Shown: positions 17,180 to 50,964 of the stretch, in pieces
Numbering within the stretch: the stretch's first letter is position 1
How the letters are laid out: each line of letters starts with the position of its first letter
NCBI GenBank assembly: GCA_014381825.1
Contig: JACNKX010000131.1
Coordinates: 1-50,964 of the forward strand
Length of the DNA stretch: 50,964 nucleotides
DNA from: Planctomycetota bacterium
GTDB taxonomy: Bacteria > Planctomycetota > Planctomycetia > Pirellulales > Pirellulaceae
Direction: 5' to 3'
Notes under the pieces: generated by a model
Told to the model about the DNA's origin: nothing
What the model saw: the letters and a program-made list of their open reading frames with translations, nothing else
Databases searched by the model: none
Position numbers and translations under genes: made by a program

Positions 17180-17230
17180 TGTTAGATCCTCCTATCGCAC
17201 GACAATAGACTCGCTGGTTCGATCGGCGTT

Positions 17231-18637: not shown

Positions 18638-18757
18638 GATAAAAACGCCTTTTAAACAGGTGCTTCCGTCGAGTCGTTGTCGGCAATGTACCGTCTGCTT
18701 CGATGGGATACGATAGTCTGGTGAACCAACAGCTTCCTGTTCTCTGAACCAGCATTG

Positions 18758-18931
18758 ATGAAGCTCAAGCAGATCTCAATACTCACCGTTTGTTTATTCC
18801 TGCCAGCCGACTCGGTCTTCTCACGCGAAGCCGCTGAGTTACGTCGCTATCGGTTGAAGAACGGTGACTTTTCCACCTATCAAGGGATGGGCGTGGCCAG
18901 CGGGGTGGTCGCTCGCCAGCAACGCCGGTGA
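18758..18931 (+). pseudogene. Short signal-peptide ORF, probably a gene remnant
   Basis: A 57-codon frame begins MKLKQISILTVCLFLPADSV, a good Sec signal ending near FSREAAE, and stops after YRLKNGDFSTYQGMGVASG. It looks like the first part of an exported protein cut short. The rest of the 419-nt stretch between the amidohydrolase start and 19057 shows nothing recognisable. Confidence 0.35.
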
Positions 18932-31194: not shown

Positions 31195-32111
31195 GCAATG
31201 TGGGTTGCACGAAGACTCACAAACCCGACCAATGGTCTCCGCAGGTGATGGGTGACCTTGCAGTCAAGGCGGTGGGATAGTCGGGAGACGCCCGGCAACA
31301 AGGAATTGACAGGAGCGTGGAGGCAACCGTGGATCATCGTTCAGCAGGCGGCAACGCTGTCTTGAAACACGGTCTTTCGCACTTGCTTGGAATTCAACGT
31401 TTCGACTGCGCCGTTTTGTGTTGGTGGCCCCGGAGCAATGAACCCGTGGCTTAGCAGCGACACTCCGGACATGCGGTTGTTGCGTGGTGCACTGCGAAGC
31501 AAACGCCGCGAGATGCGAGCCTTGCAGCCAGGTGACTTGCCTCTGGTCACCGCCAACTTCTCCGCCGCAGTTCGCGCGATCCCAGTTGGAGGCGATCCCG
31601 GGCAACCAAGCCGTTACGTGGAATCATTTTCCGGATTCACCTGGATCAACGATGCCACGATCACCGGTTTTCTGGACCTGATGCTGACCAGCCGGCGTGC
31701 CGTCTGACGAACTGCAGGAGTTGACCGAGCTGGACGTCATCGTCGAGCTACACAGCACCAGCGGCGTCGAGCAAGGCGCCAAGGCGTGTGCCACATTCGA
31801 CAGTTTGAGCATTCGGGCACGATGAAGAGGCAGCAGGTTCAGACGCGTCGCAACCCCACTGCATCTGATTCGGCCTTTATGAGGACTGCCGTCGCTACGA
31901 CTGGCCACCGATTCCTAAATAACTGGGAAAAGGACGTCAGAATACGATGGTGGTCCTGGGATAGCTCTCAGAGGGACCTTTTCTGGGGCTGAATTCGCAT
32001 CATTCGGCGCGATCCACGGTTTCGGCGCGAGGTACTCAGCGTGCGCGCACGTCTGTGTTCTCGAAGTCGGCTAGCCGTTCCGAGTCAATTTCATCCGCGA
32101 AAGGGGAACAC
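31195..32111. other. About 0.9 kb without a credible gene
   Basis: Short frames on both strands (for example plus 31387-31707 and minus 31264-31605) lack ribosome-binding sites and recognisable motifs. One plus-strand frame ends at 31707, and a second frame shifted by two bases continues to about 31822 with protein-like composition (DELQELTELDVIVELHSTSG), so a frameshifted relic is possible. Just upstream of the ku gene a 10-bp direct repeat (TTCGGCGCGA) occurs at 32003-32012 and 32021-32030. No copy of the repeats found at the right end of the window is present. Confidence 0.5.
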
Positions 32112-32948
32112 GTGAAAAAACGAGTCAAGGACGCGGAAGTCACCGCGAGACGTTGTGATCGACTACGCCCAGGCCGAGCGAGCTGGTGTGGTCAGCTGCA
32201 GTTGGATGGGTTGATGGTTCCCGTCAAGGCGTTTCCTGCTGTCCAGAGTTCTGCGGGCACGCAACTGTGCCAAGTACATGCTGGATGTGGACGCAGAGTT
32301 GAGCAGCCCAAGCGTTGTCCGAAGCACGGAGTGCTCGAACCGCACGAGGTCGGCAAGGCGTTTGCGTACTCGGCCGACGAGATGGTTGAACTCAGCGCAT
32401 CCGACCTACAGAGTATCGGTCCGGTGGACGACAAGAAGATCGTTCTTGGGCAATTCATCAGCGCGACGTCACTCGATCTGACCTTGCTCGCCGGCCGGAG
32501 TTTGCAACTTGCGCCAAGCCACGCGGTTGCAGGCCCACTGTACGCAACGATTGTCGCCGCACTAACCAAAACGACCAAGTGGGGAATCGGGACAGTCGTC
32601 TTTTCGGGAAAAAGGAACCTGATTCTTGTCCGGCCGGAGTCGTCGCGCCTCGTGCTGCACACGCTACATAGTCCGCGCTTGCTCTTCGCGCCGGTTGACA
32701 GCGTGAACACGGCCGACAGTGTATCTCACCCAACCGTTAAGCGCATCTGCAAGACAATCGAGCACAACTCGGGACCAATCAACTGGGACGACTTTGAAGA
32801 CGACGCAGGAGGCCGGCTAGTTGAACTGATCAATGCTCGCGCAAGTCGCTTCACTCCCGCCAAGGAGCCGTCGAAATGTCCAGGACAAAGAAAGTCACCG
32901 AGCCGTCCCCGGCGCCGCGCAACATCGAAAACTGCGAAGGCCGCATGA
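32112..32948 (+). CDS. ku: Ku-like DNA-end-binding protein
   Basis: The 278-residue product follows the bacterial Ku pattern from end to end: RASWCGQLQLDGLMVPVKAF (the usual start of the Ku core), a cysteine/histidine-rich turn CQVHAGCGRRVEQPKRCPKH, AFAYSADEMVELSASDLQSI, KKIVLGQFISATSLDLTLLA, GTVVFSGKRNLILVRPESSR and a LVLHTLHSPRLL strand. It ends in a lysine/arginine-rich tail (KSPSRPRRRATSKTAK) as many bacterial Ku proteins do. Ku dimers ring double-stranded DNA ends and recruit ligase LigD in non-homologous end joining; no LigD is in this window. GTG 32112 is preferred over ATG 32055 because AAGGGGA lies just upstream. The end overlaps tnsA by 73 nt, so Ku is made together with the transposase and probably protects or bridges element or donor ends, comparable to Mu Gam (inference). 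Confidence 0.83.
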   Translation: MKKRVKDAEVTARRCDRLRPGRASWCGQLQLDGLMVPVKAFPAVQSSAGTQLCQVHAGCGRRVEQPKRCPKHGVLEPHEVGKAFAYSADEMVELSASDLQSIGPVDDKKIVLGQFISATSLDLTLLAGRSLQLAPSHAVAGPLYATIVAALTKTTKWGIGTVVFSGKRNLILVRPESSRLVLHTLHSPRLLFAPVDSVNTADSVSHPTVKRICKTIEHNSGPINWDDFEDDAGGRLVELINARASRFTPAKEPSKCPGQRKSPSRPRRRATSKTAKAA

Positions 32949-33754
32949 AGTGGCAAGCAGAGATTGGCGAACCGGTGGAGTCACTCCCCGCCCCGAGCAC
33001 CTATCGCCTCCGTCGCCGTACGCCTGGCTCTTTTGTACTAGTTTCCTGTCCGCAGATCGGGAGGGCGCTCAAGTGCCAGGGGCAGTTGGAAGCGGCAACG
33101 GCTGTGATTCTTGCCGGTTGCCCCGAAGTGCAGTCCGTGCGCGAACAGCCCGCGAAGATCTGGTACTCGTGGCACGAGAACGCTGACGAACTCAACGTGC
33201 AGATTCTGGATGCTCCGCAGCAGATAGCGCGGGGGCGAAACGCAACACGGCACGTTAGCTACGTCGTTCCGGACTTCCTGGTGAGACTAACGAATCGGCG
33301 GGTACATTTGATCGAAGTCAAACCGTCGCGACGGCTGGAAGATCCGATTGTGCAGCGAAAACTCTGCGCATCGCGCACATATGCCGACGACCAGGGTTGG
33401 TCGTTCCACGTACTCACCGAAGAGCACTTGGTTGGCGGCTCATTGGTTCGCAACCTTCGGCTGTTGGCTCGTTACCGTCACTTGCAGGCAGAAGCGCAGG
33501 AGTTAGCCGCGCTGGAGTCGCGTGTCCCACCCCAGGGACGAACGCTGATGGACTTGTGTGATGGCGAGACTTCTGGCGCTCAGGTGCGCGTTCACCTGTT
33601 TCATCTGCTTGCGATGCACAGGCTCAGCTTTGACCCCCGTTCAAGGCCACTCGATAAAGCGACAAAGATCTTTCCTGGAGGTGTTATCACATGGAACCCG
33701 TTCGACTCGGTGTGGGCACCGAATGGTTGCTCGACGGGCGGACTTTCCGTGTAG
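32876..33754 (+). CDS. tnsA: TnsA-like PDDEXK transposon endonuclease
   Basis: TnsA cuts the 5-prime strands at the transposon ends while TnsB cuts the 3-prime strands, giving cut-and-paste movement. The core is visible as GQLEAATAVILA (E72), a beta-strand QPAKIWYSW, SYVVPDFLVRLTNRRVHLIE with D133 and EVK at 147-149, the PD-(D/E)xK triad. The length of 292 residues is close to that of Tn7 TnsA. The start ATG 32876 has AAGGAG eight bases upstream; ATG 32945, which overlaps the ku stop as ATGA, would give a 269-residue protein and is also plausible. The end overlaps tnsB by 64 nt. All catalytic residues are present, so donor excision is expected rather than replicative cointegrate formation. 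Confidence 0.85.
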   Translation: MSRTKKVTEPSPAPRNIENCEGRMKWQAEIGEPVESLPAPSTYRLRRRTPGSFVLVSCPQIGRALKCQGQLEAATAVILAGCPEVQSVREQPAKIWYSWHENADELNVQILDAPQQIARGRNATRHVSYVVPDFLVRLTNRRVHLIEVKPSRRLEDPIVQRKLCASRTYADDQGWSFHVLTEEHLVGGSLVRNLRLLARYRHLQAEAQELAALESRVPPQGRTLMDLCDGETSGAQVRVHLFHLLAMHRLSFDPRSRPLDKATKIFPGGVITWNPFDSVWAPNGCSTGGLSV

Positions 33755-35739
33755 TCCGCCAAATCTCTAACGAGGTGTTCGTCGCCGAAGACATCAAGTT
33801 TCGCGTTCCGAGAGAGTTCACAAAATCGGAGATTCTCACGTCGTACGCCGAAGGTAAGTTGTCGTTTTCGGTTGTCGCCCCCGCCAGTGATGAAGCGTCG
33901 CTTAGTGCACCTGTCTCGGTCGTCCATGATCTGACGGAAGAGCAGCAGGCGGTCCTACAGAACCGTTGGATCGCGATCGCGCCGCTGGCGGACTTAGATC
34001 GGCAACCCACCCAGGACGAGTTCCGAGAACGATCGGATCAGCTGACGGCTGGCGGAATGCGGATCTCACCGCGCACCTTGCGACGTTGGTGGCGCGCCTG
34101 GCATCAGGCGGGCAAGAATCGGCTGGCGTTGCTCCCTCGAACGGCTCGTAGTGGTGCCCGGGGAAAGCAGCGATCTCACAGCTGGCTGGAGAGGTATCCG
34201 CGTTTGAAGCAGCTCGTCGACGACGCGATTCAGAACGTCTATCTGACCAAGGCTCGCAGACCCGTCTCTGCCGTAACTCGCCGCGTGCTGGAAGACTTGC
34301 AACGACTTAACGCCCGGATGCCTGCGGCTCAGGCGTTGCCCATACCTAAGGAAGCGACTCTAAGCCGAGCCATCGCGCGACGAATTGCGCAACTCGATCC
34401 GTGGGAAGTGGATCGCCAGCGCTGGGGCCGGCAGATCGCCGATCGGCGGCACGCGCCGACCACACCTCAGCGACTTGCTCGACGAATTCTCGAAAGAGTT
34501 GAAGTGGACCATACGCCTCTCAAGATTGTTGTTGGCACAGAAGCCGGGCCGATCGGACAACCGACCTTGACGGTCCTGATCGACTACTACAGCCGCATGA
34601 TCACGGGCTTTTGCCTCAGTTTCGAGCCACCATCATACGCTGTGCTGATGGAGGCGCTCCGGCACGGCATCCTGCCGAAGACATACGTCGGTGATCACTA
34701 TCCCAGAATCAATGGGAACTGGCCTTGCTATGGCGTACCCGAAAAGCTTGTCTGTGACCGTGGCGCGGATCTCACCAGCAAAGACTTGGAACACGCGGCG
34801 TTTCAGTTGGGGATTGAGCTCGACTTCAACCCACCTCGCACGCCGAACTTCAAAGGGGCGGTCGAAGCGTTCTTTGGTGGTTTGAATGATCAATTGTCGG
34901 CATCGCTCCCCGGTCGCACCTTTCGTAGCTGGGAACGCCGAGCGGACTACGATCCGGACGACGGACCACTGATGAGCTACGACGCGCTGCTGGAGATCAT
35001 CCATATCCACTTAGTTGATGTCTATGCTGCGAGTAAGCACCCAACAGCGACCCAGACGCGGCTCGCGATGTGGCAAAACGGCGCCGATGAGTTCCCACCC
35101 TCCCTGCCGGCATCTCCAGACGAACTCGTCGTTCTGCTGTCCAAGCGGGTCGAGCGCACTCTGTTGGCTCGTGGGATTGAACTCGGTGGCATGTTTTATA
35201 CGAGTGACGAACTGATGGCCTTGCGATCCGAACTGGTCGCCAACAACGTGCATACCAACCGCTTCCAGGTTTGCTACAACCCATGGAATCTAGGCGAGGC
35301 GTGGGTGCTAAATCCCTTAACTCACGGCTATATCAAGGCCACCGCCGTCGACACGGCGATGAAGGGAATGACGCAGTATCAGTGGAACGTCTTGAAACGT
35401 GCGGTGCGCGAGAAGTTCGACGAACCAGACTATCTGATGAATCTGGCAGCCGGTCGGAACGCGATTCGGGAGGTTGCCGAGCAGGCGATGAAAACACCGT
35501 CTCGCAAGCGTCGAGTCCGTGCAGCAAGGTTTCTGCAGGATCCGCCAGGCGAACGGAACAGCATGAGCGAGCTCGATCCAGTTGCTTCGTCTCTGATCGC
35601 TGACAATGACAGCGCAACACCGGCAGTGCCCGCTCCGCCCGAAACTACTGGCGACGAGCCGGGCGATGAAACGGCGGCTGACATCGACCCTGACGAACTT
35701 GATGTCGATGACTGGGACATCGCTGCACCCAACACGTAG
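33691..35739 (+). CDS. tnsB: TnsB-like DDE transposase (Mu/Tn7 type)
   Basis: The 682-residue protein carries an N-terminal DNA-binding part with helix-turn-helix segments (ISPRTLRRWWRAWHQAGKNR at about 125-144) and an RNase H-fold catalytic core: D273 in VEVDHTPLKIV, D356 in KLVCDRGADL and E392 in NFKGAVEAFFG, giving the 35-residue D-E spacing of the DD35E group. The C-terminus is acidic and flexible (GDEPGDETAADIDPDELDVD followed by DWDI), which matches the TnsC-contacting tail of other TnsB proteins. A GGAGGT site precedes ATG 33691 inside tnsA. It should bind the terminal repeats and join 3-prime ends to target DNA. Confidence 0.92.
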   Translation: MEPVRLGVGTEWLLDGRTFRVVRQISNEVFVAEDIKFRVPREFTKSEILTSYAEGKLSFSVVAPASDEASLSAPVSVVHDLTEEQQAVLQNRWIAIAPLADLDRQPTQDEFRERSDQLTAGGMRISPRTLRRWWRAWHQAGKNRLALLPRTARSGARGKQRSHSWLERYPRLKQLVDDAIQNVYLTKARRPVSAVTRRVLEDLQRLNARMPAAQALPIPKEATLSRAIARRIAQLDPWEVDRQRWGRQIADRRHAPTTPQRLARRILERVEVDHTPLKIVVGTEAGPIGQPTLTVLIDYYSRMITGFCLSFEPPSYAVLMEALRHGILPKTYVGDHYPRINGNWPCYGVPEKLVCDRGADLTSKDLEHAAFQLGIELDFNPPRTPNFKGAVEAFFGGLNDQLSASLPGRTFRSWERRADYDPDDGPLMSYDALLEIIHIHLVDVYAASKHPTATQTRLAMWQNGADEFPPSLPASPDELVVLLSKRVERTLLARGIELGGMFYTSDELMALRSELVANNVHTNRFQVCYNPWNLGEAWVLNPLTHGYIKATAVDTAMKGMTQYQWNVLKRAVREKFDEPDYLMNLAAGRNAIREVAEQAMKTPSRKRRVRAARFLQDPPGERNSMSELDPVASSLIADNDSATPAVPAPPETTGDEPGDETAADIDPDELDVDDWDIAAPNT

Positions 35740-35790
35740 GCCTCGGTACGTGCGGCCTGTCATTCCTTTTGAGTTTGAAGGAGGCCTCTT

Positions 35791-36843
35791 ATGGCTCGAG
35801 CTTCCGCTTCGCAATCCGACCGAAGCAGGTGGCGGCGGGTGCCTGTTGAAGAACGATTGGCGCACGTGAATCACTTGATCGTGTTACATCCTTGCTTCCG
35901 AGACGCGGTTGCCTTGTTGAAGCGGTGCCACGAGGCCAGTGGTCAGTCGACGGAGCCTGTCTGTGGCGCAATCCTGGGAGCGTCAGGCGTCGGCAAGACC
36001 AGCGTCGTGGATCATTATCGAAGATCCCACCCAGCCGAGGAGACTGAAACCGCAACAAGGCAACCGGTCCTGAAGGTCACTCTCCAGCCAGACGCCCGAC
36101 CGAAAGGGATCGCCTCGGACTTGCTGCTGGCCCTGGGCGATCCCGCGTGGAGTCGTGGCACAGTGCAAACGTTGACCAATCGCGCGGTGAAGTTGCTGAA
36201 CCGTTGTGGCGTTGAGCTCATCGTGATGGACGAATTCCATCATCTGTTCGACATGGACCGCGCTCGAGTGATGACCAAAGCCTCGCAGTGGCTAAAGGTG
36301 CTGATCGTAAACACGGGGATCCCGATCGTTGTTTGCGGGATGCCGGAAGCTGAGCATGTATTAAGAGCGGAACACACAGAACGGCGGTTCAAGGAACGTT
36401 TGACGCTGCCCTGTTTCACTTGGCGGACGACACCTGGCCGCCGCGAGTTCTGCGGCATGCTGAAAAAGCTGGATACTACGCTGCCCTTGGCCAAGATGTC
36501 GGGACTCGCCGCACCGGACATGGCAGGCCGTTTCTTTCTGGCCACTCGAGGCGTACCCGATTACCTGATGACCCTGGTTCGCAGCGCGACATCCGAAGCC
36601 TTGACGCAACGACATGAGCATATCGACATGGCTGACCTCGCACGCGTTTATGAGTCCAAGCTTGCGATGCAACGGGTACTAGCCGAGCAGGAGAATCCGT
36701 TCATTGGAAGTCTCGACAAAGGTGCTCTGGACCGAGCCCAACCGGCTGACGAAAGAAGAACTGCCGGAGTCGGACTGACGCCGCGCGCTGCAAAGAGTCG
36801 TCGGAAGCCACTTACCGCTGGCCAGCTATTGGGAGGTGGATGA
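35791..36843 (+). CDS. tnsC: TnsC/TniB-like AAA+ transposition regulator
   Basis: TnsC-type ATPases form filaments or rings on target DNA and link the TniQ protein to TnsB. The 350-residue product has Walker A GASGVGKTS at 63-71 and Walker B LIVMDEFHH at 143-151, with a sensor region near GIPIVVCGMPEAEH and an arginine-rich stretch (EHTERRFKERLTL). Length and motif order suit the TniB/short TnsC group (Tn5053 and type V-K CAST) more than the 555-residue Tn7 TnsC. AAGGAGG lies in front of the ATG, 51 nt after tnsB. The last four bases overlap tniQ (ATGA). Confidence 0.9.
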   Translation: MARASASQSDRSRWRRVPVEERLAHVNHLIVLHPCFRDAVALLKRCHEASGQSTEPVCGAILGASGVGKTSVVDHYRRSHPAEETETATRQPVLKVTLQPDARPKGIASDLLLALGDPAWSRGTVQTLTNRAVKLLNRCGVELIVMDEFHHLFDMDRARVMTKASQWLKVLIVNTGIPIVVCGMPEAEHVLRAEHTERRFKERLTLPCFTWRTTPGRREFCGMLKKLDTTLPLAKMSGLAAPDMAGRFFLATRGVPDYLMTLVRSATSEALTQRHEHIDMADLARVYESKLAMQRVLAEQENPFIGSLDKGALDRAQPADERRTAGVGLTPRAAKSRRKPLTAGQLLGGG

Positions 36844-38762
36844 TGGAAAGGCTTCCTGCTCGCGAAGTGCCCCTACCTGGCGAGTCGTTAGCCAGTCTCT
36901 TGAGACGCACGTCAGAAGCGATGGGCTATAAGGATCTTGGATACATTGCCAGCTTCGTATCGGACAAGTCGGTGCCGCTATGGAATGCTAGTCGTTCTAG
37001 TGACAGCGCGATTCTCGACCCCCTGGCCGCTCTACTGGCGACGACCTCAGAGCAGTTGCTGCAGCTAACGGTCCATGCTTATGCAAATCCGCTAGTGCTT
37101 GTTCCGCGCCAGGAAACGCCAGCCCAGCTGTCCGACAGCAAGACGATCCTACGTTACTTCACCGCGTCCGCGCCCGTCTGTCCGCATTGCTTGAACGACG
37201 ACCCCATACCCTACGAACGTCTAACGTGGACGTTTAAGCCAGCTCCAGTCTGTGCCGATCATCAATGTCTCTTGATTGATCGTTGTCCAACCTGCCATCG
37301 GCAACTGTGGCCACACCGCAGGTTGGTTCAACAGTGCAGTTGCGGAAGCGACATTCGTGAATGGAAGGTAGGCAGCGTATCCCGGGAAGCGGCGGATCTG
37401 GTGAAAGAGTTATTTGGCTGGATACGCGGTGACAAGCTGGCGATCAACGGAATCTCAACGGCCGCCAGTTTCTGGTGGATGGACCGCGTCAGAGCGTGCA
37501 TCGAGAAGAAGCTTGCGTGCTTGCAGCGTACTCGAATTGAACTTGCGCTTGGGCTGCAGATGCCCGATGACGTGAGTTGGCTCGCTGCGGCGTCAACGCT
37601 GCGTGACTGGCCCGAATCGTTTACTTCCTTCCTCGACTCGCTTCAGCAAACTCCCGACAGTGCCAACTCTGGCATCGGTCGCCGATTTGGCTATTTGCCG
37701 CGAGATGCTGTGAAGCTGGAGTCCAAAGGGTACTCGGCCCCAGCAGAGGTAATTCGAGAGTACTTGCTGGGGCAGTATACGCAAGGCCACCTGAACCGTA
37801 AGGTCTGCCTGTTCAAATCCGCCACCTACCGGAGTCGCTTGTCCCAGCGTGATTGGATGACTCAAACGCAGGCGGCCAAAGCGATCGGCCTCCGACACGG
37901 CTGCGTTCGAGCGTTGATCGAACGTGGGCTACTTGAGGGCGAGGTGAGTAATGCCGGTAGCCGCACGGTTGGACTCGTGCGGCGCGGTTCGATGGTCAGG
38001 TTACGAGGTGAACTGCACAACTCGCTCAGTCGAAGGGAAGTATCGGTTCGCCTCGGAATTGGCCCACATCAAGTACTCGATCTGATTCGGCTTGAGCTGC
38101 TTTGCGGTATTCGCACGAACAGAGGCTGGCGAATCCTGAATCACTCCGTTCGAGCCGTGGAAGATCTGTACGAGCGACTACCAATTGCGACGCGCGTAAC
38201 AGCCCAATGGTCTACCGCTCGCCAGGCTACGCGAGTTCACGGAGCATGTGGTTTGAGATTCGCTCAGCTTTGGCAGCGCATCGCATCTCAACAAGTCCGC
38301 GGCCGCAGACTGACGGGGCAGGCGACCCTGAAGGGTCTCGTCGTATCCACACCGGATATCGAGCGCATCCTTCCGGAAGTCGAAGCACAGTACTTCCAAG
38401 GGCGCGGATACCCGCTCAACAAACTCGCGAAGAGCTTGCTTCCCGGACGCCCAACGAAAGAGCGAGTCCTCAAGAAATGGATCGAGATGGGGATTCTGCA
38501 CGTCCGTCAGTCCGGTCGGTCTCTCGTTTGTTCCCACGATGAGGTGCAGCGATTTCGAGACCTTTACTGTCTCGCGGCGGAGGCCTGCGAACTTCTCCAG
38601 ATCAGCCGTGCATCCTTGGCTCGTTGGGAAACTGAGGACCGCCTCCGTCCTGTCTACGGGAAACGAGTCACGGCTGGAGCCGGGTTCTCGCTCTATCGAT
38701 GGCCCGACATCGAGCAACTAAAGGCACAACGCGATGCGGGACAGTTTCGCCGCGCAGCGTGA
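36840..38762 (+). CDS. tniQ: TniQ/TnsD-like target-selection protein
   Basis: The N-terminal TniQ domain is shown by VPLPGESLASLLRRTSEAMG at 10-29 and the treble-clef zinc site CPHC (114-117) with CADHQCLL and CPTC (149-152), then CSCG at 166-169. At 640 residues it is far longer than the 167-400-residue TniQ of Tn5053 or CAST and is in the range of Tn7 TnsD (508). The C-terminal two thirds hold several helix-turn-helix-like segments (WMTQTQAAKAIGLRHGCVRA, LSRREVSVRLGIGPHQVLDL, AAEACELLQISRASLARWET) of MerR/excisionase flavour, so sequence-specific target binding is likely. No second TniQ or guide system is visible. Confidence 0.87.
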   Translation: MMERLPAREVPLPGESLASLLRRTSEAMGYKDLGYIASFVSDKSVPLWNASRSSDSAILDPLAALLATTSEQLLQLTVHAYANPLVLVPRQETPAQLSDSKTILRYFTASAPVCPHCLNDDPIPYERLTWTFKPAPVCADHQCLLIDRCPTCHRQLWPHRRLVQQCSCGSDIREWKVGSVSREAADLVKELFGWIRGDKLAINGISTAASFWWMDRVRACIEKKLACLQRTRIELALGLQMPDDVSWLAAASTLRDWPESFTSFLDSLQQTPDSANSGIGRRFGYLPRDAVKLESKGYSAPAEVIREYLLGQYTQGHLNRKVCLFKSATYRSRLSQRDWMTQTQAAKAIGLRHGCVRALIERGLLEGEVSNAGSRTVGLVRRGSMVRLRGELHNSLSRREVSVRLGIGPHQVLDLIRLELLCGIRTNRGWRILNHSVRAVEDLYERLPIATRVTAQWSTARQATRVHGACGLRFAQLWQRIASQQVRGRRLTGQATLKGLVVSTPDIERILPEVEAQYFQGRGYPLNKLAKSLLPGRPTKERVLKKWIEMGILHVRQSGRSLVCSHDEVQRFRDLYCLAAEACELLQISRASLARWETEDRLRPVYGKRVTAGAGFSLYRWPDIEQLKAQRDAGQFRRAA

Positions 38763-39289: not shown

Positions 39290-39484
39290 TTGAACACTCA
39301 CATCGTGGTGGCCTGCATGTCGCTGGCCATCCTGCTTGCGGTGATCGCTCTATTGCGCGAGGCGCGGTTGAGGCGGGCGTTGCAAGTGCTTTTACGTCGA
39401 TTGTTACTTCACTGGAACCGTCATGAACAAGAACCAACGGATACTGCTGACCGCGATCGCGACCATCGTGATCACCGGTTGTAG
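39290..39484 (+). CDS. Small single-pass membrane protein
   Basis: A TTG start with TGAGGA seven bases upstream opens a 64-codon frame, LNTHIVVACMSLAILLAVIA, a clear transmembrane segment, followed by a basic stretch (LREARLRRALQVLLRRLLLH). The end overlaps the following gene by 62 nt in another frame. The positive-inside rule puts the tail in the cytoplasm. Small size and non-ATG start keep the call uncertain. Confidence 0.45.
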   Translation: MNTHIVVACMSLAILLAVIALLREARLRRALQVLLRRLLLHWNRHEQEPTDTADRDRDHRDHRL

Positions 39485-40004
39485 CGAAGACGAGCGGCTG
39501 GCACGCCTGGCGCAGGAGTCGGTCCAGCAACAACGTTCGCAAAACGAAGAGATGACGCGACTCAATCGTGAAGTCGCCGAAGGCGTGAAGCGATTAGTCG
39601 AAAGCGAGAACGAGTCTCGCAAGGAACTGACTTCGCTCCAGCGCGAGGTTCAATGCCAGCAGGCAGACGTTGGTGTTCAACGTGACCGGCTGGAGAGTGA
39701 ACGAAAGGAAATCGCCAGGCAACGCTACCGCGACTCGCTGCTGGTTCCCGTGTTGCACCATGCGGGTTTGCTGCTCGTCTGTATACTTCCGTTGTTGCTG
39801 GCGTGGTATTTGTTGCACGATTGGCGCAGTGAACCGCAGGACGACCTCGCGATCAGCGAGCTACTGATCGAAGAATTCGCCAGTGATCGGCCCAGATTAT
39901 TGCCACCGGGTGCGACCGCTCCATCGATTGAGCACCGTGACCAGGAACGGCTCCCGGAACCTGATGATCCAGCAGCTTTCCACGATGAGACCGTCACGCT
40001 GTAG
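39423..40004 (+). CDS. Lipoprotein-like membrane protein with coiled coil
   Basis: The N-terminus RILLTAIATIVITGCSED is a lipoprotein signal with the cysteine at about residue 20. Residues about 25-105 form a long charged coiled coil (QESVQQQRSQNEEMTRLNRE and SLQREVQCQQADVGVQRDR). A transmembrane helix follows (HAGLLLVCILPLLLAWYLLH), then an acidic tail. Having both a lipobox and a downstream helix is unusual; the first hydrophobic stretch could instead be an uncleaved anchor. Its place directly upstream of the DUF1257/DUF2997/AAA+ genes suggests it brings that machinery to the membrane (inference). Confidence 0.65.
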   Translation: MNKNQRILLTAIATIVITGCSEDERLARLAQESVQQQRSQNEEMTRLNREVAEGVKRLVESENESRKELTSLQREVQCQQADVGVQRDRLESERKEIARQRYRDSLLVPVLHHAGLLLVCILPLLLAWYLLHDWRSEPQDDLAISELLIEEFASDRPRLLPPGATAPSIEHRDQERLPEPDDPAAFHDETVTL

Positions 40005-40049
40005 GTCCATGTTGTTCCCATGTCGTCAAGCACTGAAGGAGACTGTCAA

Positions 40050-40418
40050 TTGTCACACATTGTTGAAATCTCCACACAGGTGAGAGATCCGGCCGCCATT
40101 CGTGCTACCTGCCAGCGGCTGACGTTACCTCCGCCTGTCCACGGCCCAACACGGCTGTTTGCAGGCGAAGTGACCGGTTGGGCAGTCCAGCTGCCTGATT
40201 GGAAGTTGCCCGCTGTCTGCAACACGGACACGGGTCAGCTCCACTACGACAACTACAACGGAAGATGGGGAGACGAGTCTCGACTGCATGAGTTTCTGCA
40301 GAGTTATGCCGTCGAGAAGACTCGCATCGAGGTTCGAAGGCAGGGACACACGATGACCGAGGAGTCACTGCCGGACGGTTCGATTCGCATGACCGTCGCG
40401 GTTGGGGGTGCAGCATGA
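40050..40418 (+). CDS. DUF1257 (Ycf35-like) protein
   Basis: The start is a TTG at 40050 with GAAGGAG nine bases upstream, giving LSHIVEISTQVRDPAAIRAT, which matches the usual family start SHF-x-x-I-x-T-x-x-x-D. The end holds DGSIRMTVAV, and LHEFLQSYAVEKTRIEVRRQ matches the central region of DUF1257, the family that includes plastid Ycf35. Its function is unknown; in bacteria it often pairs with a DUF2997 gene and a Ycf46-type ATPase, exactly the order seen here. Overlap ATGA with the next gene shows tight coupling. Confidence 0.8.
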   Translation: MSHIVEISTQVRDPAAIRATCQRLTLPPPVHGPTRLFAGEVTGWAVQLPDWKLPAVCNTDTGQLHYDNYNGRWGDESRLHEFLQSYAVEKTRIEVRRQGHTMTEESLPDGSIRMTVAVGGAA

Positions 40419-40609
40419 AGAGAATCGTCATCACCATCTCCCCCAAGGGTGAGACACAGCTTGAGACAAAGGGCTTCGCGGGATCTGACTGCAAAGAGGC
40501 AAGCCGCTCCTTGGAAGCGGCTCTCGGTACTGCAGCGCAAGAACGGCTCACAGCGGAATACCACCAACCGGCGGTGACCGAGCAGAGTCAACTTCGCCAA
40601 CGGAACTGA
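40415..40609 (+). CDS. DUF2997 small protein
   Basis: A 64-residue product: MKRIVITISPKGETQLETKG, then GFAGSDCKEASRSLEAALGT, the typical DUF2997 pattern (short beta hairpin, G-F-x-G-x-x-C, helix). DUF2997 is the standard companion of DUF1257. The conserved Cys in SDCKEA is present. The role is unknown. Confidence 0.83.
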   Translation: MKRIVITISPKGETQLETKGFAGSDCKEASRSLEAALGTAAQERLTAEYHQPAVTEQSQLRQRN

Positions 40610-40645
40610 CCCGCTGACCCCCTACACTGAATCGAAAGGCATTCT

Positions 40646-42130
40646 ATGACGCTGGCCACCAGCTTGAGTGATCATGTGCGCGCTTGCTGCAGCGGCATCT
40701 GGATCCAGAGCCACGAGCATGAAGATGCGATTGCTGATATCTCCCGGCTCTGCGCCGAACAGCAGTGGCATCTCGCAACGTGGGACATTGAACAAGGGCT
40801 ACAGTTCTCAGGACAGGCGACAGAGGAGTCAGGCACTGCGAGTGACCCTGTAGCAGCGATTCGTTCTATCAACTCCTTAGCTACGGCTGATGGCGCGGCC
40901 CTCTTGGTGCTAACCAACTTCCATCGGTTTCTCCAGTCTGCGGAAGTCATCCAGGCCGTCGCGCAGCAAGTCACACTTGGCAAGCGAAATCGCACGTTCC
41001 TGATCGTGTTGTCACCAACTGTGCAGCTTCCCCTCGAACTCGAGAAACTGTTCGTTGTTTTGGAGCATGATCTACCAGACCGCGAGCAGCTCGAACAGAT
41101 TGCCCGTGGAATCGCTACGGAAGAAGACGAGCTGCCTCAAGGCGAGCAGCTACAACAGGTACTCGACTCGGCCGTCGGTCTGACACGACATGAAGCTGAG
41201 GTAGCCTTCTCTTTGTCGCTTGTCCAGCATGGTCGCCTGACGCCAAGTGTTCTGTGGAATACGAAGGCTCAGACGCTCAAGAAGAGCGGGCTGTTGTCGC
41301 TCCATCAAGGCGGTGACTCGCTCGATTGCCTGGGTGGAATGAGAGCATTGAAATCCTTCTGCATCCGTGCTCTGCGCCGAACCAATTCAGAAGAATCGTC
41401 GCCGCAAGCACGGGGCGTGTTGTTACTCGGCGTGCCCGGAACGGGGAAGAGCGCCTTCGCGAAGGGCCTTGGACACGAGGTTGGGCGACCGACACTGATC
41501 ATGGATGTTGGCGCTCTGATGGGAGGCATCGTCGGCGAAACGGAACGCAACGTCCGTCAAGCACTACGCATCGTCGATGCCATGAGCCCCGCCATTCTGA
41601 TGATCGACGAAGTCGAGAAAGCCTTAAGCGGCGTTGCCAACTCTGGCCAATCAGACAGTGGTGTCTCTGCAAGACTCTTCGGCACGTTCCTCACATGGCT
41701 GGCCGATCATCAATCCGATGTTTTCGTGATCTGCACCTGCAACAACATCAGCGCGTTGCCTCCAGAATTCGCGCGAGCCGAGCGCTTTGACGGGGTCTTC
41801 TTCTGTGACCTTCCCGGAGCGTCGCACAAAGGCAGTATCTGGGATATCTACCTTCAGCAGTATGAACTTGATCCGGAGCAGCCGAAGCCACGGACTGACC
41901 AATGGACTGGGGCGGAGATTAAGAGCTGCTGCCGACTTGCTGCGCTGCTAGATATTTCGCTGAAGGAGGCTGCCAAGCACGTTGTGCCAGTTGCAGTCAC
42001 GGCGAGCGAGTCCATCGAACGCCTACGCAACTGGGCCAATGGCAGATGCCTCGATGCTGATGCGCCGGGAATCTACGCGCGGCGTGCTTCATTATCTCGC
42101 AACGCCGCCCGAGATATCTCGGCCAATTGA
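40646..42130 (+). CDS. Ycf46-like AAA+ ATPase
   Basis: The 494-residue protein has a non-catalytic N-terminal half with a decayed nucleotide-binding fold (AALLVLTNFHRFLQS, RTFLIVLSPTVQLPLELEKL) and a C-terminal AAA+ module with Walker A GVPGTGKS (262-269), Walker B ILMIDEVEKA (from 317), sensor 1 VICTCNNISALP and arginine finger region PPEFARAERFD. This two-half layout is that of the Ycf46/SpoVK-like family of cyanobacteria and plastids. It follows DUF2997 by 36 nt with AAAGG before the ATG. An unfolding or remodelling role next to a conjugation system would fit, but is inference. Confidence 0.85.
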   Translation: MTLATSLSDHVRACCSGIWIQSHEHEDAIADISRLCAEQQWHLATWDIEQGLQFSGQATEESGTASDPVAAIRSINSLATADGAALLVLTNFHRFLQSAEVIQAVAQQVTLGKRNRTFLIVLSPTVQLPLELEKLFVVLEHDLPDREQLEQIARGIATEEDELPQGEQLQQVLDSAVGLTRHEAEVAFSLSLVQHGRLTPSVLWNTKAQTLKKSGLLSLHQGGDSLDCLGGMRALKSFCIRALRRTNSEESSPQARGVLLLGVPGTGKSAFAKGLGHEVGRPTLIMDVGALMGGIVGETERNVRQALRIVDAMSPAILMIDEVEKALSGVANSGQSDSGVSARLFGTFLTWLADHQSDVFVICTCNNISALPPEFARAERFDGVFFCDLPGASHKGSIWDIYLQQYELDPEQPKPRTDQWTGAEIKSCCRLAALLDISLKEAAKHVVPVAVTASESIERLRNWANGRCLDADAPGIYARRASLSRNAARDISAN

Positions 42131-42179
42131 TCGTATTCCCTTGGTACGACGTCTGCGGCTCTGAAAGGAATAATCGCCT

Positions 42180-43130
42180 ATGAGTGTTACATTAGAAGAA
42201 CCGATCGTTCGTCCATCGACGTGCCCAGCGCAACGGCTGCGCGCCGAGATGGCGGCAGTTCGACTGTCGTTGTCGTGGTTTGGTGTCCGCAAGGCGCTCA
42301 CCGAGCAGCAGAAGCAACAGGCTGCCGTCGCGTTCGATGCCCAACACAACTGCCTGTCTGCTGGCAAGAGACTGTTGGATACACGGCATCCGGCCTACCG
42401 AGCCATTACGACGATCAAAGGCCGTGTCATCGGTTACTGGAAAGGGATGACGGTCCCGTTCCCGGAACCTGGAGTGAGGTTGATTCGGCAAAACGGCATC
42501 ATCGACTTCGAGAGTCAGATGAGTGTCTTCCGAGAAGAACTGGTAGAAGCGGTCCAGAGTTTGGATGAGCACTATGACGAGCTGAGAGAAGCGGCGCGGC
42601 AACAGCTCGGCAGTCTGTTCAATGCGACCGACTATCCACCGCAATTTCGAGGCCTGTTTCTCCTCGAATGGGACTACCCGTCGGTTGAAGCACCGTCCTA
42701 CTTGCGCCAGCTCAACCCCGAGCTCTTCGAGCAGGAATGTGCTCGCGTCGCCTCGCGATTTGATGAGGCGGTTCGTTTGACGGAAGCAGCATTCGTGGAA
42801 GAGTTCGCTAAGCTGGTGGAACATCTCACGGAACGACTATCTGCAGACGATGGTCATCCGAAGGTCTTCAGAGACTCAGCAGTTGGTAATCTCACCCAGT
42901 TCTTTGATCGCTTTCGCAACTTGAACATTCGTAGCAACGACCAGTTGGATGAACTGGTCGAACAAGCTCAAGACGTCGTGCAGGGACGCAGCCCGCAACA
43001 GCTTCGCGATAACGACACATTGCGACAGTCTGTGGCGACACAACTTACGGAGGTTCAGAACGCACTAGACGACTTGCTCGTCAATCGGCCACGCCGCAAC
43101 ATTCTGCGTCGCCCTCGGTCAGAGGAGTAG
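42180..43130 (+). CDS. Helical protein of unknown function (DUF3150-like?)
   Basis: A 316-residue soluble, mostly helical protein. It opens with RLRAEMAAVRLSLSWFGVRK and continues LDTRHPAYRAITTIKGRVIG followed by YWKGMTVPFPEPGVRLI, and has heptad-like helices after residue 100. The arrangement reminds me of DUF3150 proteins, which accompany MoxR-type ATPases, but the match is by impression only. It follows the AAA+ gene by 49 nt with AAAGGA upstream, so it is probably its partner. Confidence 0.68.
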   Translation: MSVTLEEPIVRPSTCPAQRLRAEMAAVRLSLSWFGVRKALTEQQKQQAAVAFDAQHNCLSAGKRLLDTRHPAYRAITTIKGRVIGYWKGMTVPFPEPGVRLIRQNGIIDFESQMSVFREELVEAVQSLDEHYDELREAARQQLGSLFNATDYPPQFRGLFLLEWDYPSVEAPSYLRQLNPELFEQECARVASRFDEAVRLTEAAFVEEFAKLVEHLTERLSADDGHPKVFRDSAVGNLTQFFDRFRNLNIRSNDQLDELVEQAQDVVQGRSPQQLRDNDTLRQSVATQLTEVQNALDDLLVNRPRRNILRRPRSEE

Positions 43131-43134
43131 CAGC

Positions 43135-43386
43135 ATGGAGATGGTGGTGGGTCCGAACGGTGTCGTTCGCTGTCTGTATGAAGAGACAATCGCGTTGGTC
43201 AGCCTGGGCCCTCTCCGCATCAGTCGCGCATCGCACGTCGAACCTGACTCTTCGGGAACGTGGTATGCGGATCTAGCGCCGGTTGCCGGCCCTCGGCTAG
43301 GCCCTTTCTCTGTTCGTAGCGAAGCGCTCGATGCGGAGAAGGAGTGGCTGATTCAACATCGGCTACTCGATTCATGTGAGCGCTGA
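43135..43386 (+). CDS. Small unrecognised protein, 83 residues
   Basis: GAGGAG lies eight bases before the ATG, four bases after the preceding stop. The product starts MEMVVGPNGVVRCLYEETIA and ends with a helix LDAEKEWLIQHRLLDSC; it looks like a single small alpha/beta domain. It is the last gene before a terminator hairpin, so it closes the DUF1257/AAA+ half of the cargo. Confidence 0.65.
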   Translation: MEMVVGPNGVVRCLYEETIALVSLGPLRISRASHVEPDSSGTWYADLAPVAGPRLGPFSVRSEALDAEKEWLIQHRLLDSCER

Positions 43387-43421
43387 GTCGCCACTCTTCA
43401 CAACCTGACAGCACTTGTCGT

Positions 43422-43452
43422 GGCTCTCGTCCGAGAGCCGTTTCTGTTTCTT
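43422..43452 (+). terminator. Rho-independent-like terminator
   Basis: A perfect 8-bp stem (43422-43429 with 43432-43439, loop of two bases) is followed by a T-rich tail (GTTTCTGTTTCTT). It lies 36 nt after the 83-residue ORF and separates the AAA+ half of the cargo from the ubiquitin-like half. The two-base loop is tight; the outer base pair may open in practice. Confidence 0.6.
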
Positions 43453-43478
43453 GTCCCCGCAATTGCCTGAGTGAATGC

Positions 43479-43661
43479 ATGAACCAACGTGATTTGGACC
43501 GTGAAGTTGCCCGCGCCACGGGGGAAACCGTGGCAACGATTAACCAGATGGGATTCGTCCCTCTGGAGCCCATTCCGTACGAGCGGGATCGCAAGCCGCT
43601 CGTCGTCGATTGGGAAGAACTGGAACAGGAACGCATGATCCTGCACCCCTGCGCGAAGTGA
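43479..43661 (+). CDS. Conserved-looking short protein, 60 residues
   Basis: The frame MNQRDLDREVARATGETVAT, then INQMGFVPLEPIPYERDRKP and LVVDWEELE, resembles a short protein I associate with planctomycete genomes (a helical start ending G-E-T/S-V plus a proline-rich end). No function is known. The upstream site is weak. It opens the second half of the cargo. Confidence 0.55.
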   Translation: MNQRDLDREVARATGETVATINQMGFVPLEPIPYERDRKPLVVDWEELEQERMILHPCAK

Positions 43662-43724
43662 CCTTCGCGTGTCGTGACAAGGCTGTCGTTACCAAACTGC
43701 AACAACCAACTATCGAGAACGCGA

Positions 43725-43949
43725 ATGAAGATCCTATGGATCAATAATGACGGCGGCGGTTACGCCAATGACATCGACATCAACGAAGCGACAACTATCG
43801 CAGAACTCTTCGAGAACAAGATTCCAAATGCGAAGGCCAGCGATTACCTGATACGGGTGAATCGCCAGCCGACGTCTCGGGAGTACGTCCTCCAAGCAGG
43901 TGACCGCGTTTCCTGTACTCCCGTCAAGATTGAAGGAGCACGTCGCTAA
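43725..43949 (+). CDS. Ubiquitin-like (beta-grasp) modifier
   Basis: The 74-residue product MKILWINNDGGGYANDIDIN, EATTIAELFENKI and VNRQPTSREYVLQAGDRVSC has the beta-grasp pattern of MoaD/ThiS/ubiquitin: strand, strand, helix (TIAELFENKI), then a final hairpin with the L-Q-x-G-D-R-V motif common to MoaD/ThiS and bacterial ubiquitin-like proteins. The C-terminus is PVKIEGARR: only one Gly (G71) and three residues beyond it, not a bare GG. Processing by the JAMM peptidase encoded downstream could expose G71 (inference). ATG 43725 is chosen over 43674 because the beta-grasp begins at once. Confidence 0.78.
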   Translation: MKILWINNDGGGYANDIDINEATTIAELFENKIPNAKASDYLIRVNRQPTSREYVLQAGDRVSCTPVKIEGARR

Positions 43950-44014
43950 TCGCACACATGGGGACGCCGCGGCTTGTTCGTGACGTTCCCGTGCGTCTTT
44001 ACCAAGGAAACACC

Positions 44015-45061
44015 ATGGCACCGACTCCCGCATATCGTATCGCGCTCGTTATCCACGAGCATCTAACGCCGCAGCCCAGTACGATCCAATGCCAGGAACT
44101 ACCCGACGCAGCTTGGTCTAAGTGTCAATCACTGCGCCGACAATTACACCTCGCTCATAGTCGCGAGTGGCGACTTGCGGCCCGACGATTGGATCGAGAC
44201 TATCGGAGTCAACTGCAGGCGTTTGCCGATCAGATGGCTCGACTCACCAGCGGCTTAGCTCATGGTGCAACAGCGGGCATCGCGACTGCGCGCGGCGTTT
44301 ACGAAGACATCTTATCGCTGCACGCAGAATTCGATGATGTGGCTTGGAGCAAACTTCAAGGTACGCTCTGTGTGACGACCGAGGACATCGTCCTGGAAGG
44401 TGTCGCTCTTGGGCGATTTCAGATCCAGCTCGATTGGCGTGAACTTCCTGCTACATGTTTTCGCGTCATTGCACTCGATCCCAATCCAGCGGCCAGTAAT
44501 GAAGACGTCACGCATCCTCACGTTGAGCATGATTCGCTTTGTGTCGGCGACGCCAGGCTGCCAATTCAACGCGCGCTGGAGCAAGGTCGGATCGCTGACT
44601 TCTTCCAAATCATCAATAGTGTTCTGCTAACGTACAACAGCGGCAGCCCCTACGTGTCGCTCGCGGATTGGAATGGCGTGTCCTGCTCGGACTGCGGTGA
44701 TTCCGTCGACTCCGACGGCCGTTACACGTGCGAGAAATGCGAACACTGCTTGTGTGAGTCTTGTTATCGCTACTGCGAAGCGTGCAGTTGCTACTTCTGT
44801 TGCGAGTGCGTCGCTCGCTGCGAGGGATGTGAGGAAGACGTATGTCATTGTTGTCAGCAGTCTTGTAAGTCGTGCCGAGATACCTTTTGTCCAGGTTGCC
44901 TGGAGGAGAACCTCTGTGATAACTGCCAGCAAGAATCGACGGAAGCGGCCGCGTTACCAGCGAGCGAACGAACCGCGGGTGATTCTGTCGGAGCCAGAGC
45001 GACGAACGCCGACATTGCGATTCACGCCGACCGCCTGGGGAAAGTTGCTGTTCCTGCGTGA
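44015..45061 (+). CDS. E2-like protein fused to cysteine-rich RING-like domain
   Basis: AAGGA precedes ATG 44015. Residues 35-110 are helical and charged. The E2-like core spans about 113-222 with THPHV at 166-170 and the catalytic cysteine C176 in DSLCVGD, followed by the helix [20 protein letters not shown]. In eukaryotic E2s the HPN motif precedes the cysteine by ten residues; here HPH precedes it by nine. Residues 224-304 contain over 20 cysteines in C-x-x-C pairs ([24 protein letters not shown]-type runs, [13 protein letters not shown]) that would bind several zinc ions as treble-clef/RING-like or TRASH-like units. A single chain thus has E2 plus a possible E3 module. The gene overlaps the JAMM gene by 146 nt. 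Confidence 0.75.
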
Positions 45062-45647
45062 TCGCGGTGAGACCGAGATTGGCGGCTTCGGGTTGTCTGG
45101 TCCAAACGACTTGTCTCTGATTGAGGACATCCGCCTCGTTGAACAAGACTGTACGGCGGTGACGGTCTCCTTCAGGGACCACGCAGTTGCGGACTTCTTT
45201 GATGAGCAGGTTGATGCGGGCCGCACACCTGAATCATTTGGGAGATGTTGGCTGCATACGCATCCTGGTGATTGTCCATTGCCTAGCGCTACAGACGAGG
45301 AGACCTTCGATCGAGTATTTGGTCGCGCGGACTGGGCTGTCATGTTCATCATCGCCCGCAGCGGCGACACCTACGCACGACTGCGATTCAACACCGGCCC
45401 TGGCGGTGAAATCGAGCTTGCCACCACGATCGACTATAGAGCGGACTTCCCGGCGTCGGATCGAACAGCGTGGGAGCAGGAGTTCACCAAGGCGGTGCAC
45501 GACACCACCATCGTCAGTTCGACGGTTGATGTCTCCGCACCCCTCGGCTATCGAGATCCGTTCGATGAGGAATGGTACGACGAGTGGTTTCAGTACGCAG
45601 ATGACGATTCCGATCGTCCAAGTGTGAAAGTGGTAGAGCATGAATGA
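44916..45647 (+). CDS. JAMM/JAB-domain isopeptidase
   Basis: The JAMM zinc-peptidase motif is complete: E54 in TEIGGFGLS, then H114-x-H116-P with S124 and D127 in [22 protein letters not shown] peptidases of bacterial ubiquitin-like operons remove C-terminal tails or detach the modifier. I place the start at GTG 44916, with GGAGGAG about eight bases before it, inside the zinc-binding tail of the E2-like gene; longer frames upstream are shadow of that gene. The acidic C-terminus ([17 protein letters not shown]) may be a binding tail. The end overlaps the E1-like gene by 8 nt. Confidence 0.85.
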
Positions 45648-46332
45648 CGGTTTAGACGATCGCTTCGTTCGGCAACGCGACTTGGTGCCAGGCGACAGGC
45701 TATCCGAATGTCGGGCCACCATCGTCGGTGTGGGTGCTGTGGGCAGGAACTTGGCGCTTCAGCTTGCCGCCGTTGGGGTGCCCAACATTCAACTGATCGA
45801 CTTTGATCGCGTTGATCTATCAAACACGACCACGCAGGGTTTTTCGGCTGATGAAGTCGGCATGGCCAAGGTCGAGGCCGTCCGAGGCGCGATCCAGCGA
45901 CTCGATCCTTCTCTCGCTGTTGAGACAATTCAAGATCGCTATCGGTCCAAGCAAGCCGTCGGAAATGTCTTGTTCGGTTGCGTCGATTCGATCTCGGCGC
46001 GAGCAGCAATCTGGCGCACTGTCAAGAATCGCTGCGGTTTCTGGTGTGATGCAAGAATGCTTGGAGAAGTCATCCGAGTTTTAACTGCAAGCCATCCAAG
46101 CATTGATGAGTTCTACTCGACGACGCTCTTCTCACAATCCGAGGCCCAAGTCGGGAATTGCACAAGTCGCACTACGATCTACGCAGCCTGCATTGCTGCT
46201 GGAATGATGACCCATCAATTCTCGCGCTGGCTTCGCGAGATCCCAACTGATTCTGACCTGACCCTCAATCTGCTCGCCAGCGAACTATCCATTCCATCAC
46301 CCGTTCCAACGCCGCAGTACTCCTGGGACTGA
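45640..46332 (+). CDS. E1-like ThiF-family adenylating enzyme
   Basis: The 230-residue protein is a single ThiF/MoeB Rossmann module: ATP-binding GVGAVG at 30-35, [11 protein letters not shown] at 52-62, the lysine in GMAKVEA, D116 in [10 protein letters not shown], and a cysteine in VGNCTSRTT (C174), placed as the catalytic or thioester cysteine of the family. It would adenylate the C-terminus of the beta-grasp protein and pass it to C176 of the E2-like protein. It lacks the C-terminal ubiquitin-fold and second catalytic domain of eukaryotic E1, as is normal for bacteria. Confidence 0.88.
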
Positions 46333-50749: not shown

Positions 50750-50777
50750 CGTTCACGTAGCGGTCGCGACGCACACG

Positions 50778-50960
50778 TGCCAACCTTTGTGTCCGGAATG
50801 CGTCCGATGGCCAACCTTTGTGTCTCAAACGTGACAAGGTTTGTGTCCAAGCTGGTTGTAACTCGTTATGCTCTGGTGATCGACGGGACAAGCTTTATGT
50901 CATCTACCAACCGTTTGGTATTTGACATAAAGGTTGTCATTTCGGACACAAAGGTTGTCA
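50778..50960. repeat. Six 16-bp repeats, probable transposon-end TnsB sites
   Basis: Copies of TGACAACCTTTGTGTC lie at 50778-50794, 50809-50825, 50832-50848, 50887-50901 (plus strand) and at 50924-50939 and 50945-50960 (minus strand). The outermost two read inward as TGACA...TGTC, the layout of terminal TnsB-binding repeats of Tn7-like and type V-K elements. A palindrome TACCAA-CCGT-TTGGTA (50905-50920) lies between copies four and five. The four copies in the opposite orientation are odd for a single transposon end and may belong to a second element or a regulatory array. The tip itself is not visible. Confidence 0.65.
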
Positions 50961-50964
50961 CGCT

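Follow-up and report, generated by a model that had tools for sequence, protein, structure and literature searches.

The window analysed here is the whole of contig C196 (JACNKX010000131.1; 50,964 bp), which belongs to the 9.69-Mb draft genome of a planctomycete of the family Pirellulaceae. It carries an operon in which a homologue of the DNA-end-binding protein Ku precedes the genes of a Tn7-like transposon, and the place of this Ku in the transposon lineage is the subject of this report. The five genes follow each other in the order ku, tnsA, tnsB, tnsC and tniQ, all on the forward strand:

32112..32948, + strand: ku, Ku homologue of 278 amino acids, first gene of the operon (PF02735, E = 1.2e-18)
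32945..33754 (preferred start), + strand: tnsA, TnsA-like endonuclease (PF08722, 1.2e-12)
33691..35739, + strand: tnsB, DDE transposase (Mu-transpos_C, 2.6e-6; rve, 8.5e-6, under its cut-off)
35791..36843, + strand: tnsC, AAA+ regulator of the TniB type (PF05621, 1.4e-25)
36840..38762, + strand: tniQ, presumed target selector of 640 amino acids with an extra helix-turn-helix domain (PF06527, 1.5e-15; HTH_17, 2.8e-7)

An earlier, sequence-only reading of this DNA had claimed that a full-length Ku homologue leads a tnsA-tnsB-tnsC-tniQ operon, and all five genes are confirmed. The Ku profile match on which that claim was staked is found: the protein scores 68.1 bits with PF02735 for a cut-off of 25, so that the β-barrel core of Ku is present, followed by a basic C-terminal tail. 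With the Ku_bact model TIGR02772 it reaches 118.6 bits, short of the 150-bit equivalog cut-off for the Ku of non-homologous end joining (NHEJ). The window Ku matches a solved bacterial Ku in phmmer (2.2e-8), and a profile built from seven element Kus matches solved bacterial Kus at 7.4e-29. Foldseek, a check that the earlier reading had suggested, also returned bacterial Ku as top match, although the AlphaFold model used is weak (predicted local distance difference test, pLDDT, 59; template-modelling score, TM, 0.41 to the query).

One detail of that reading did not hold. The overlap of 73 nucleotides between ku and tnsA presumes a tnsA start at 32876, whereas a start at 32945 is likely, albeit not proven. 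The ATG at this position overlaps the TGA of ku as ATGA, that is by 4 nucleotides, and gives TnsA an N-terminus of about the same length as in its relatives. In six intact relatives the gap between the two genes is 16-34 nucleotides when the first ATG past ku is taken as start, and with the preferred starts it ranges from -4 to 34 nucleotides across the seven intact loci. Some relatives have other possible tnsA starts: in L040, L042 and L046 a GTG that overlaps the stop of ku, and in L045 earlier ATGs. ku itself begins with a GTG preceded by an AAAGGGG box, and its G+C content (0.585) is that of tnsA-tniQ (likewise 0.585).

The operon holds the gene set of a Tn7-like element: a TnsA endonuclease, a TnsB DDE transposase, a TnsC ATPase and a TniQ-domain protein, the profiles of the last two (PF05621 and PF06527) both scoring above cut-off. 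In TnsA, the nuclease motifs GQLEA and PDFL..E.K are intact in all seven proteins read, which thus keep the PD-(D/E)xK residues, and a seven-row TnsA profile matches the PDB entry of PseTnsAB, in its TnsA part, at 4.2e-8. In TnsB, the D-D-E motifs (VEVDH, VCDRG and KGAVE) are intact in 6/6 proteins read. Since the motifs of both enzymes are preserved, double-strand ends are expected. Among the window proteins scanned there are no cas genes, although neither these nor arrays were searched for systematically.

A close TnsA is present in two of the 392 genomes of the phylum, the window's own and G369; in the latter, Ku (37.6% identity), TnsA (46.6%) and TnsB (63.7% over the part present) are colinear with the window. 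When a two-row TnsB alignment was used to scan a collection of species genomes, a search whose reach is limited to close relatives, eight loci were returned, all from planctomycete metagenome-assembled genomes and G369 among them. Ku stands directly 5' of tnsA in every relative in which this side of tnsA is visible (L040 and L042-L047, seven loci; L041 begins within tnsA and was left out of the count), hence in 8/8 with the window. The sequence-only reading had suggested looking for Ku beside tnsA in planctomycete genomes, and had regarded its absence from related elements as the mark of a chance neighbour; the same order recurs at each visible locus of the lineage. Beside 13 further loci with TnsA (PF08722) in the phylum, no Ku was found within at most ~1.5 kb per side, three of these loci being under the Pfam cut-off and several lying within long frames. 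The same-genus genomes G392 and G393 yielded no Ku. Eight pattern matches for TnsA among viral contigs contained no relative, and TnsB compared with at least 5000 plasmid records gave identities of at most 35.4% among the matches listed.

The phylogeny of Ku agrees with this linkage. Eight element-type Kus form one clade (support 100/100) apart from 24 planctomycete Kus without adjoining tns genes, and a host-type Ku of genome G424 falls outside it. The 24 were drawn from 27 non-tns Kus, and the tree omits L016 (a frame of 41 amino acids), L021 and L028 (no tblastn match), L047 and C219 (broken) and L121 (contig end). Ratios of nonsynonymous to synonymous substitution (dN/dS; YN00), obtained for close pairs only, are 0.16-0.24 for Ku in five pairs among L040, L042, L043 and L046, compared with 0.28-0.46 for TnsA (six pairs), 0.11-0.16 for TnsB and 0.03-0.06 for TnsC (three pairs each). 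These comparisons show that ku belongs integrally to a Tn7-like family of cut-and-paste transposons associated with gyrB, and that it is kept under selection in the operon of this TnsA-containing, gyrB-linked family.

Two degraded copies were also seen. In L047 (6762-8461), a decayed element has a broken ku frame, a deletion having placed Ku in one frame with the C-terminal half of TnsA, and its tnsB is truncated just ahead of end repeats and gyrB. In the window's genome, contig C219 (L034, 1660-4696) carries a diverged copy (~85%) of window positions 31309-32818 in which ku is broken; the upstream gene is intact there, whereas deletions shorten it in the window. C219 and the window have a second gene in common, in the same order (window 17218-18909), and no tns match was found on C219.

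The right border of the window bears the traces of transposon ends. Six TGNCAACCTTTGTGTC-type repeats fall within its final 190 bp, for 1.1 expected, and none of 100 shuffles reached six. They belong to two features:

50779..50909, - strand: transposon-type end with four GACAYAAA-N3-TGKC-like repeats (at 50779, 50810, 50833 and 50887) and the terminus ACCA at ~50909
50910..50964, + strand: ACCGTT and, behind it, a second end (TGGT at ~50916; repeats at 50924 and 50945) leaving the contig

The last 55 bp of the window are identical to the 3' flank of gyrB at the end of contig C84 and to the start of contig C19, and the length of this identity suggests an assembler overlap. In six genomes, a TGGT end lies at +11 past the gyrB stop codon (10 bp after it) and is followed by 15-bp repeats at +19, +40 and +62. 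These are the window's own genome (C84) and those of L040, L043, L044, L045 and L047. The gyrB-side pattern has no site among 793,320 strand-bases of background, taken from 21 loci; single repeat sites stray at window position 28132 and in L041, L140, L143, L096 and L097. Among the seven other Ku-element genomes, gyrB was found in six and the end in five: the TGGT end is absent behind gyrB in G422 (L042), and no gyrB was found in G426. A single contig holds Ku-tns together with the end and gyrB in G369/G424, as also in L047/G427. On these sequences, gyrB appears to be the attachment site of the Ku-element family. The four-repeat end of the window likely belongs to the element of the window ku and, by its spacing, is perhaps the end distal to gyrB. 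ACCGTT both precedes the gyrB-side end and stands at the window junction, as would fit a putative 5-bp target duplication. The arrangement at the right end of the window is suggestive of an element end that is followed by target sequence and by the next element in a gyrB array, or of a mixed population.

In the window's genome and its near relatives, 24 of 30 gyrB flanks were readable; two (the window's genome and G393) have the repeat and 19 have neither type of end. In G392, G409 and G394 (L065, L067 and L071), another TGGT end with TACAGACTT/CCACAAACTT-type repeats was noticed by eye at a similar distance behind gyrB, and such ends probably represent a sister family at the same site. No element gene was found behind gyrB in 35 kb of G393 or 15.9 kb of G394, nor in G392 and G409, where the stretches are shorter, so that an end behind gyrB does not on its own signify a Ku element.

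Mu Gam, an end-binding relative of Ku, is used by a DDE element, and protection of cut ends, which the sequence-only reading had put forward, is a plausible function for the element Ku. In the mechanism that we propose, TnsA and TnsB would cut both strands at each element end. A Ku homodimer, produced from the same message as the transposase, would then load onto the freed double-strand ends, be they those of the excised element, of the donor flanks or of both, and would shield them against the end-resecting nucleases of the host. It may also hold two ends together until strand transfer behind gyrB, directed by TnsC and TniQ, is finished. Ku would act without LigD, and host enzymes would seal the gaps. 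We see an even chance that the element Ku binds and protects, and perhaps synapses, TnsA/TnsB-cut ends independently of LigD. We lean slightly towards the broader view that Ku has been made a dedicated, LigD-independent part of a cut-and-paste machine, coupling cleavage to the custody of ends, as a prokaryotic counterpart of PiggyMac-Ku with a separate origin. Ku of Mycobacterium tuberculosis is reported to oligomerise into filaments and to synapse DNA (PMC12658125), and loss of recD is reported to have raised the activity of a CRISPR-associated transposon (CAST) 21.8-fold (PMC12757027).

A number of observations weigh against this picture. Ku is not known to be required by Tn7 itself. The window Ku is the most divergent of its clade (terminal branch 1.69), is not part of the pairs used for dN/dS, and has the poor AlphaFold model mentioned above. 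In L140 (genome G421, 11131-12324), the clade has an intact member without a neighbouring tnsA: this Ku is followed by a small membrane open reading frame and a lipoprotein-like one, both assigned by eye, with no tnsABC-tniQ in between, and L122, the same gene, sits within the element clade without adjoining tnsA. For the window's own genome and for G421, G423 and G425, Ku and gyrB are on different contigs and the link between them is made by repeat type only. In G369 and L047 tns transcription runs towards the gyrB-side end, and the window junction suggests the opposite orientation. At the left of the G369 element, no pattern site occurs in the 41.5 kb of contig on that side of Ku; two weak matrix matches in this flank (13.8 and 14.7 bits) compare with four in one shuffled window at a threshold of 11. 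The LigD counts given below come from draft genomes and one domain model. Lastly, gam alone, an inhibitor of RecBCD, is reported to have left CAST activity unchanged, and the recD effect was interpreted by its authors as one of recombination (PMC12757027).

Ku might instead form part of the transpososome as a structural or licensing subunit, with TnsA and TnsB cutting only when Ku is bound and protection being secondary. The position of Ku in the operon and its conservation are compatible with such a role. Ciliates offer precedents in the Ku that licenses PiggyMac in Paramecium, where Ku is described as part of the cleavage machinery and depletion of Ku80c as abolishing PiggyMac-dependent cleavage (PMC4148214), and in a Tetrahymena transposon Ku that has a PiggyBac domain (PMC11936186). 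However, the sole joint frame of Ku and TnsA, that of L047, looks like decay by deletion, and we regard this alternative as unlikely.

The genes downstream of tniQ call for another alternative to end protection. They comprise:

39423..40004, + strand: small lipoprotein-like gene, also present in relatives (tblastn)
40020..46332, + strand: cargo encoding DUF1257-like, Cdc48-like AAA, o42180, ubiquitin-like, E2-like, JAB and E1 (ThiF) proteins

The ubiquitin-like protein (ThiS, E = 0.034) and JAB are both under cut-off, and the E2-like protein with its Cys-rich tail was assigned by eye. Relatives carry the same cargo genes up to the ends of their contigs. Ku could then be an ordinary cargo or accessory gene tied to the lipoprotein, AAA and ubiquitin-like module, serving the host cell or its defence. 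Such a tie is suggested by the E2-JAB-E1 block, which precedes Ku in L141, L042 and L043 and shares the contig of the L140 Ku that has no tnsA behind it, and by the defence-like parts of the module (IetA, E1 and JAB models). Ku itself matches no PADLOC model, however, and directly precedes tnsA in 8/8 loci. Moreover, o42180 occurs in 27 of 392 genomes, some with several copies (at most five scored per genome), and none of 20 module loci elsewhere (L175-L194, 4-20 kb read each) has Ku or tns nearby. These loci come from 19 of the 27 genomes, two being in the window's genome, and exclude the Ku loci of the window and of G369. The module therefore also travels without Ku, and was ruled out as its usual partner. 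A cargo role for Ku strikes us as quite improbable.

The sequence-only reading had also considered that Ku recruits the LigD of the host; Ku would in that case promote LigD-type end joining and heal the break at the donor site. Its basic C-terminal tail would suit this function, the C-terminus of M. tuberculosis Ku being reported to bind DNA and LigD (PMC9638933), and genome G424 does have a LigD. There, the LigD polymerase domain (TIGR02778) occurs beside the second, host-type Ku, and G424 is the only positive among ten genomes. The domain was not found in the window's genome, in six of the seven other Ku-element genomes or in G392 and G393, in a search that did not extend to other ligases. 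With LigD polymerase found in one genome of ten, the job of Ku is unlikely to lie in Ku-LigD end joining, and LigD recruitment was rejected as its main role. Joining of the donor ends would also lose a copy of the element that recombination repair could restore. Altogether, we hold LigD recruitment to be very unlikely. That an element merely landed beside a host ku has next to no probability: the broken ku of C219, with no tns on its contig and an adjoining gene shared with the window, speaks for it, but it is refuted by the 8/8 adjacency and by the single clade set apart from non-tns Kus, and the same-genus genomes G392 and G393 lack Ku.

The element shares with Tn7 and Tn7-like transposons the order tnsA, tnsB, tnsC, tniQ, repeated end sites and a fixed insertion behind a housekeeping gene, but here Ku is the first gene and the site is gyrB. 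The main texts of two papers on Tn7-like elements (PMC8649781, which lists one planctomycete host species, and PMC10293859) contain no mention of Ku70, Ku protein, NHEJ or gyrB. Neither a Ku-carrying Tn7-like element nor one at gyrB was found in titles and abstract openings of the papers listed from the open-access literature, a corpus that mostly leaves out subscription papers and preprints; in the one listed paper that mentions gyrB, it serves as a marker gene. The text available of PMC7719229 calls a Ku-only state rare and contains no word beginning with "transpos".

The element Ku has its core and basic tail in common with the NHEJ Kus of TIGR02772, and solved bacterial Kus are its best PDB matches; it differs by its score under the equivalog cut-off, its separate clade and the lack of detected LigD polymerase in 9/10 genomes. 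Ku is also carried by another kind of mobile element, the mycobacteriophages (LittleE, Thibault, Bombitas and others): 22 phage records match the element Ku, all from Mycobacterium phages, but these are viral and share only ~25% identity with it. Ku is likewise coupled to a transposase in ciliates, the PiggyMac and PiggyBac enzymes being of the DDE type. The PiggyMac-Ku70a/Ku80c couple of Paramecium (PMC4148214) and the PiggyBac-domain Ku of a Tetrahymena transposon (PMC11936186) nevertheless are eukaryotic and involve different transposases.

Bacterial Ku is known from its partnership with LigD. A Ku selected by a transposon in hosts without detected LigD offers a clean system for asking what Ku does alone, and a testable parallel to the Ku-transposase coupling of ciliates. 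It would show how a cut-and-paste element can care for its excised ends. Practical interest comes from the reported influence of recombination factors on Tn7-like insertion tools (PMC12757027).

Besides, repeated transposon ends recur at contig ends in the window's assembly (window 50775-50964, the end of C84, both ends of C19 and the start of C57). C19, 32 kb long, lies between two ends of the same direction, and no tns was found on it. The ends suggest a putative array of elements behind gyrB. In G369 (L038, 4248-9083), the gyrB-proximal gene encodes a protein of 1611 amino acids that combines PNP_UDP_1 with a STAND/NACHT-like part, a defence-like architecture.

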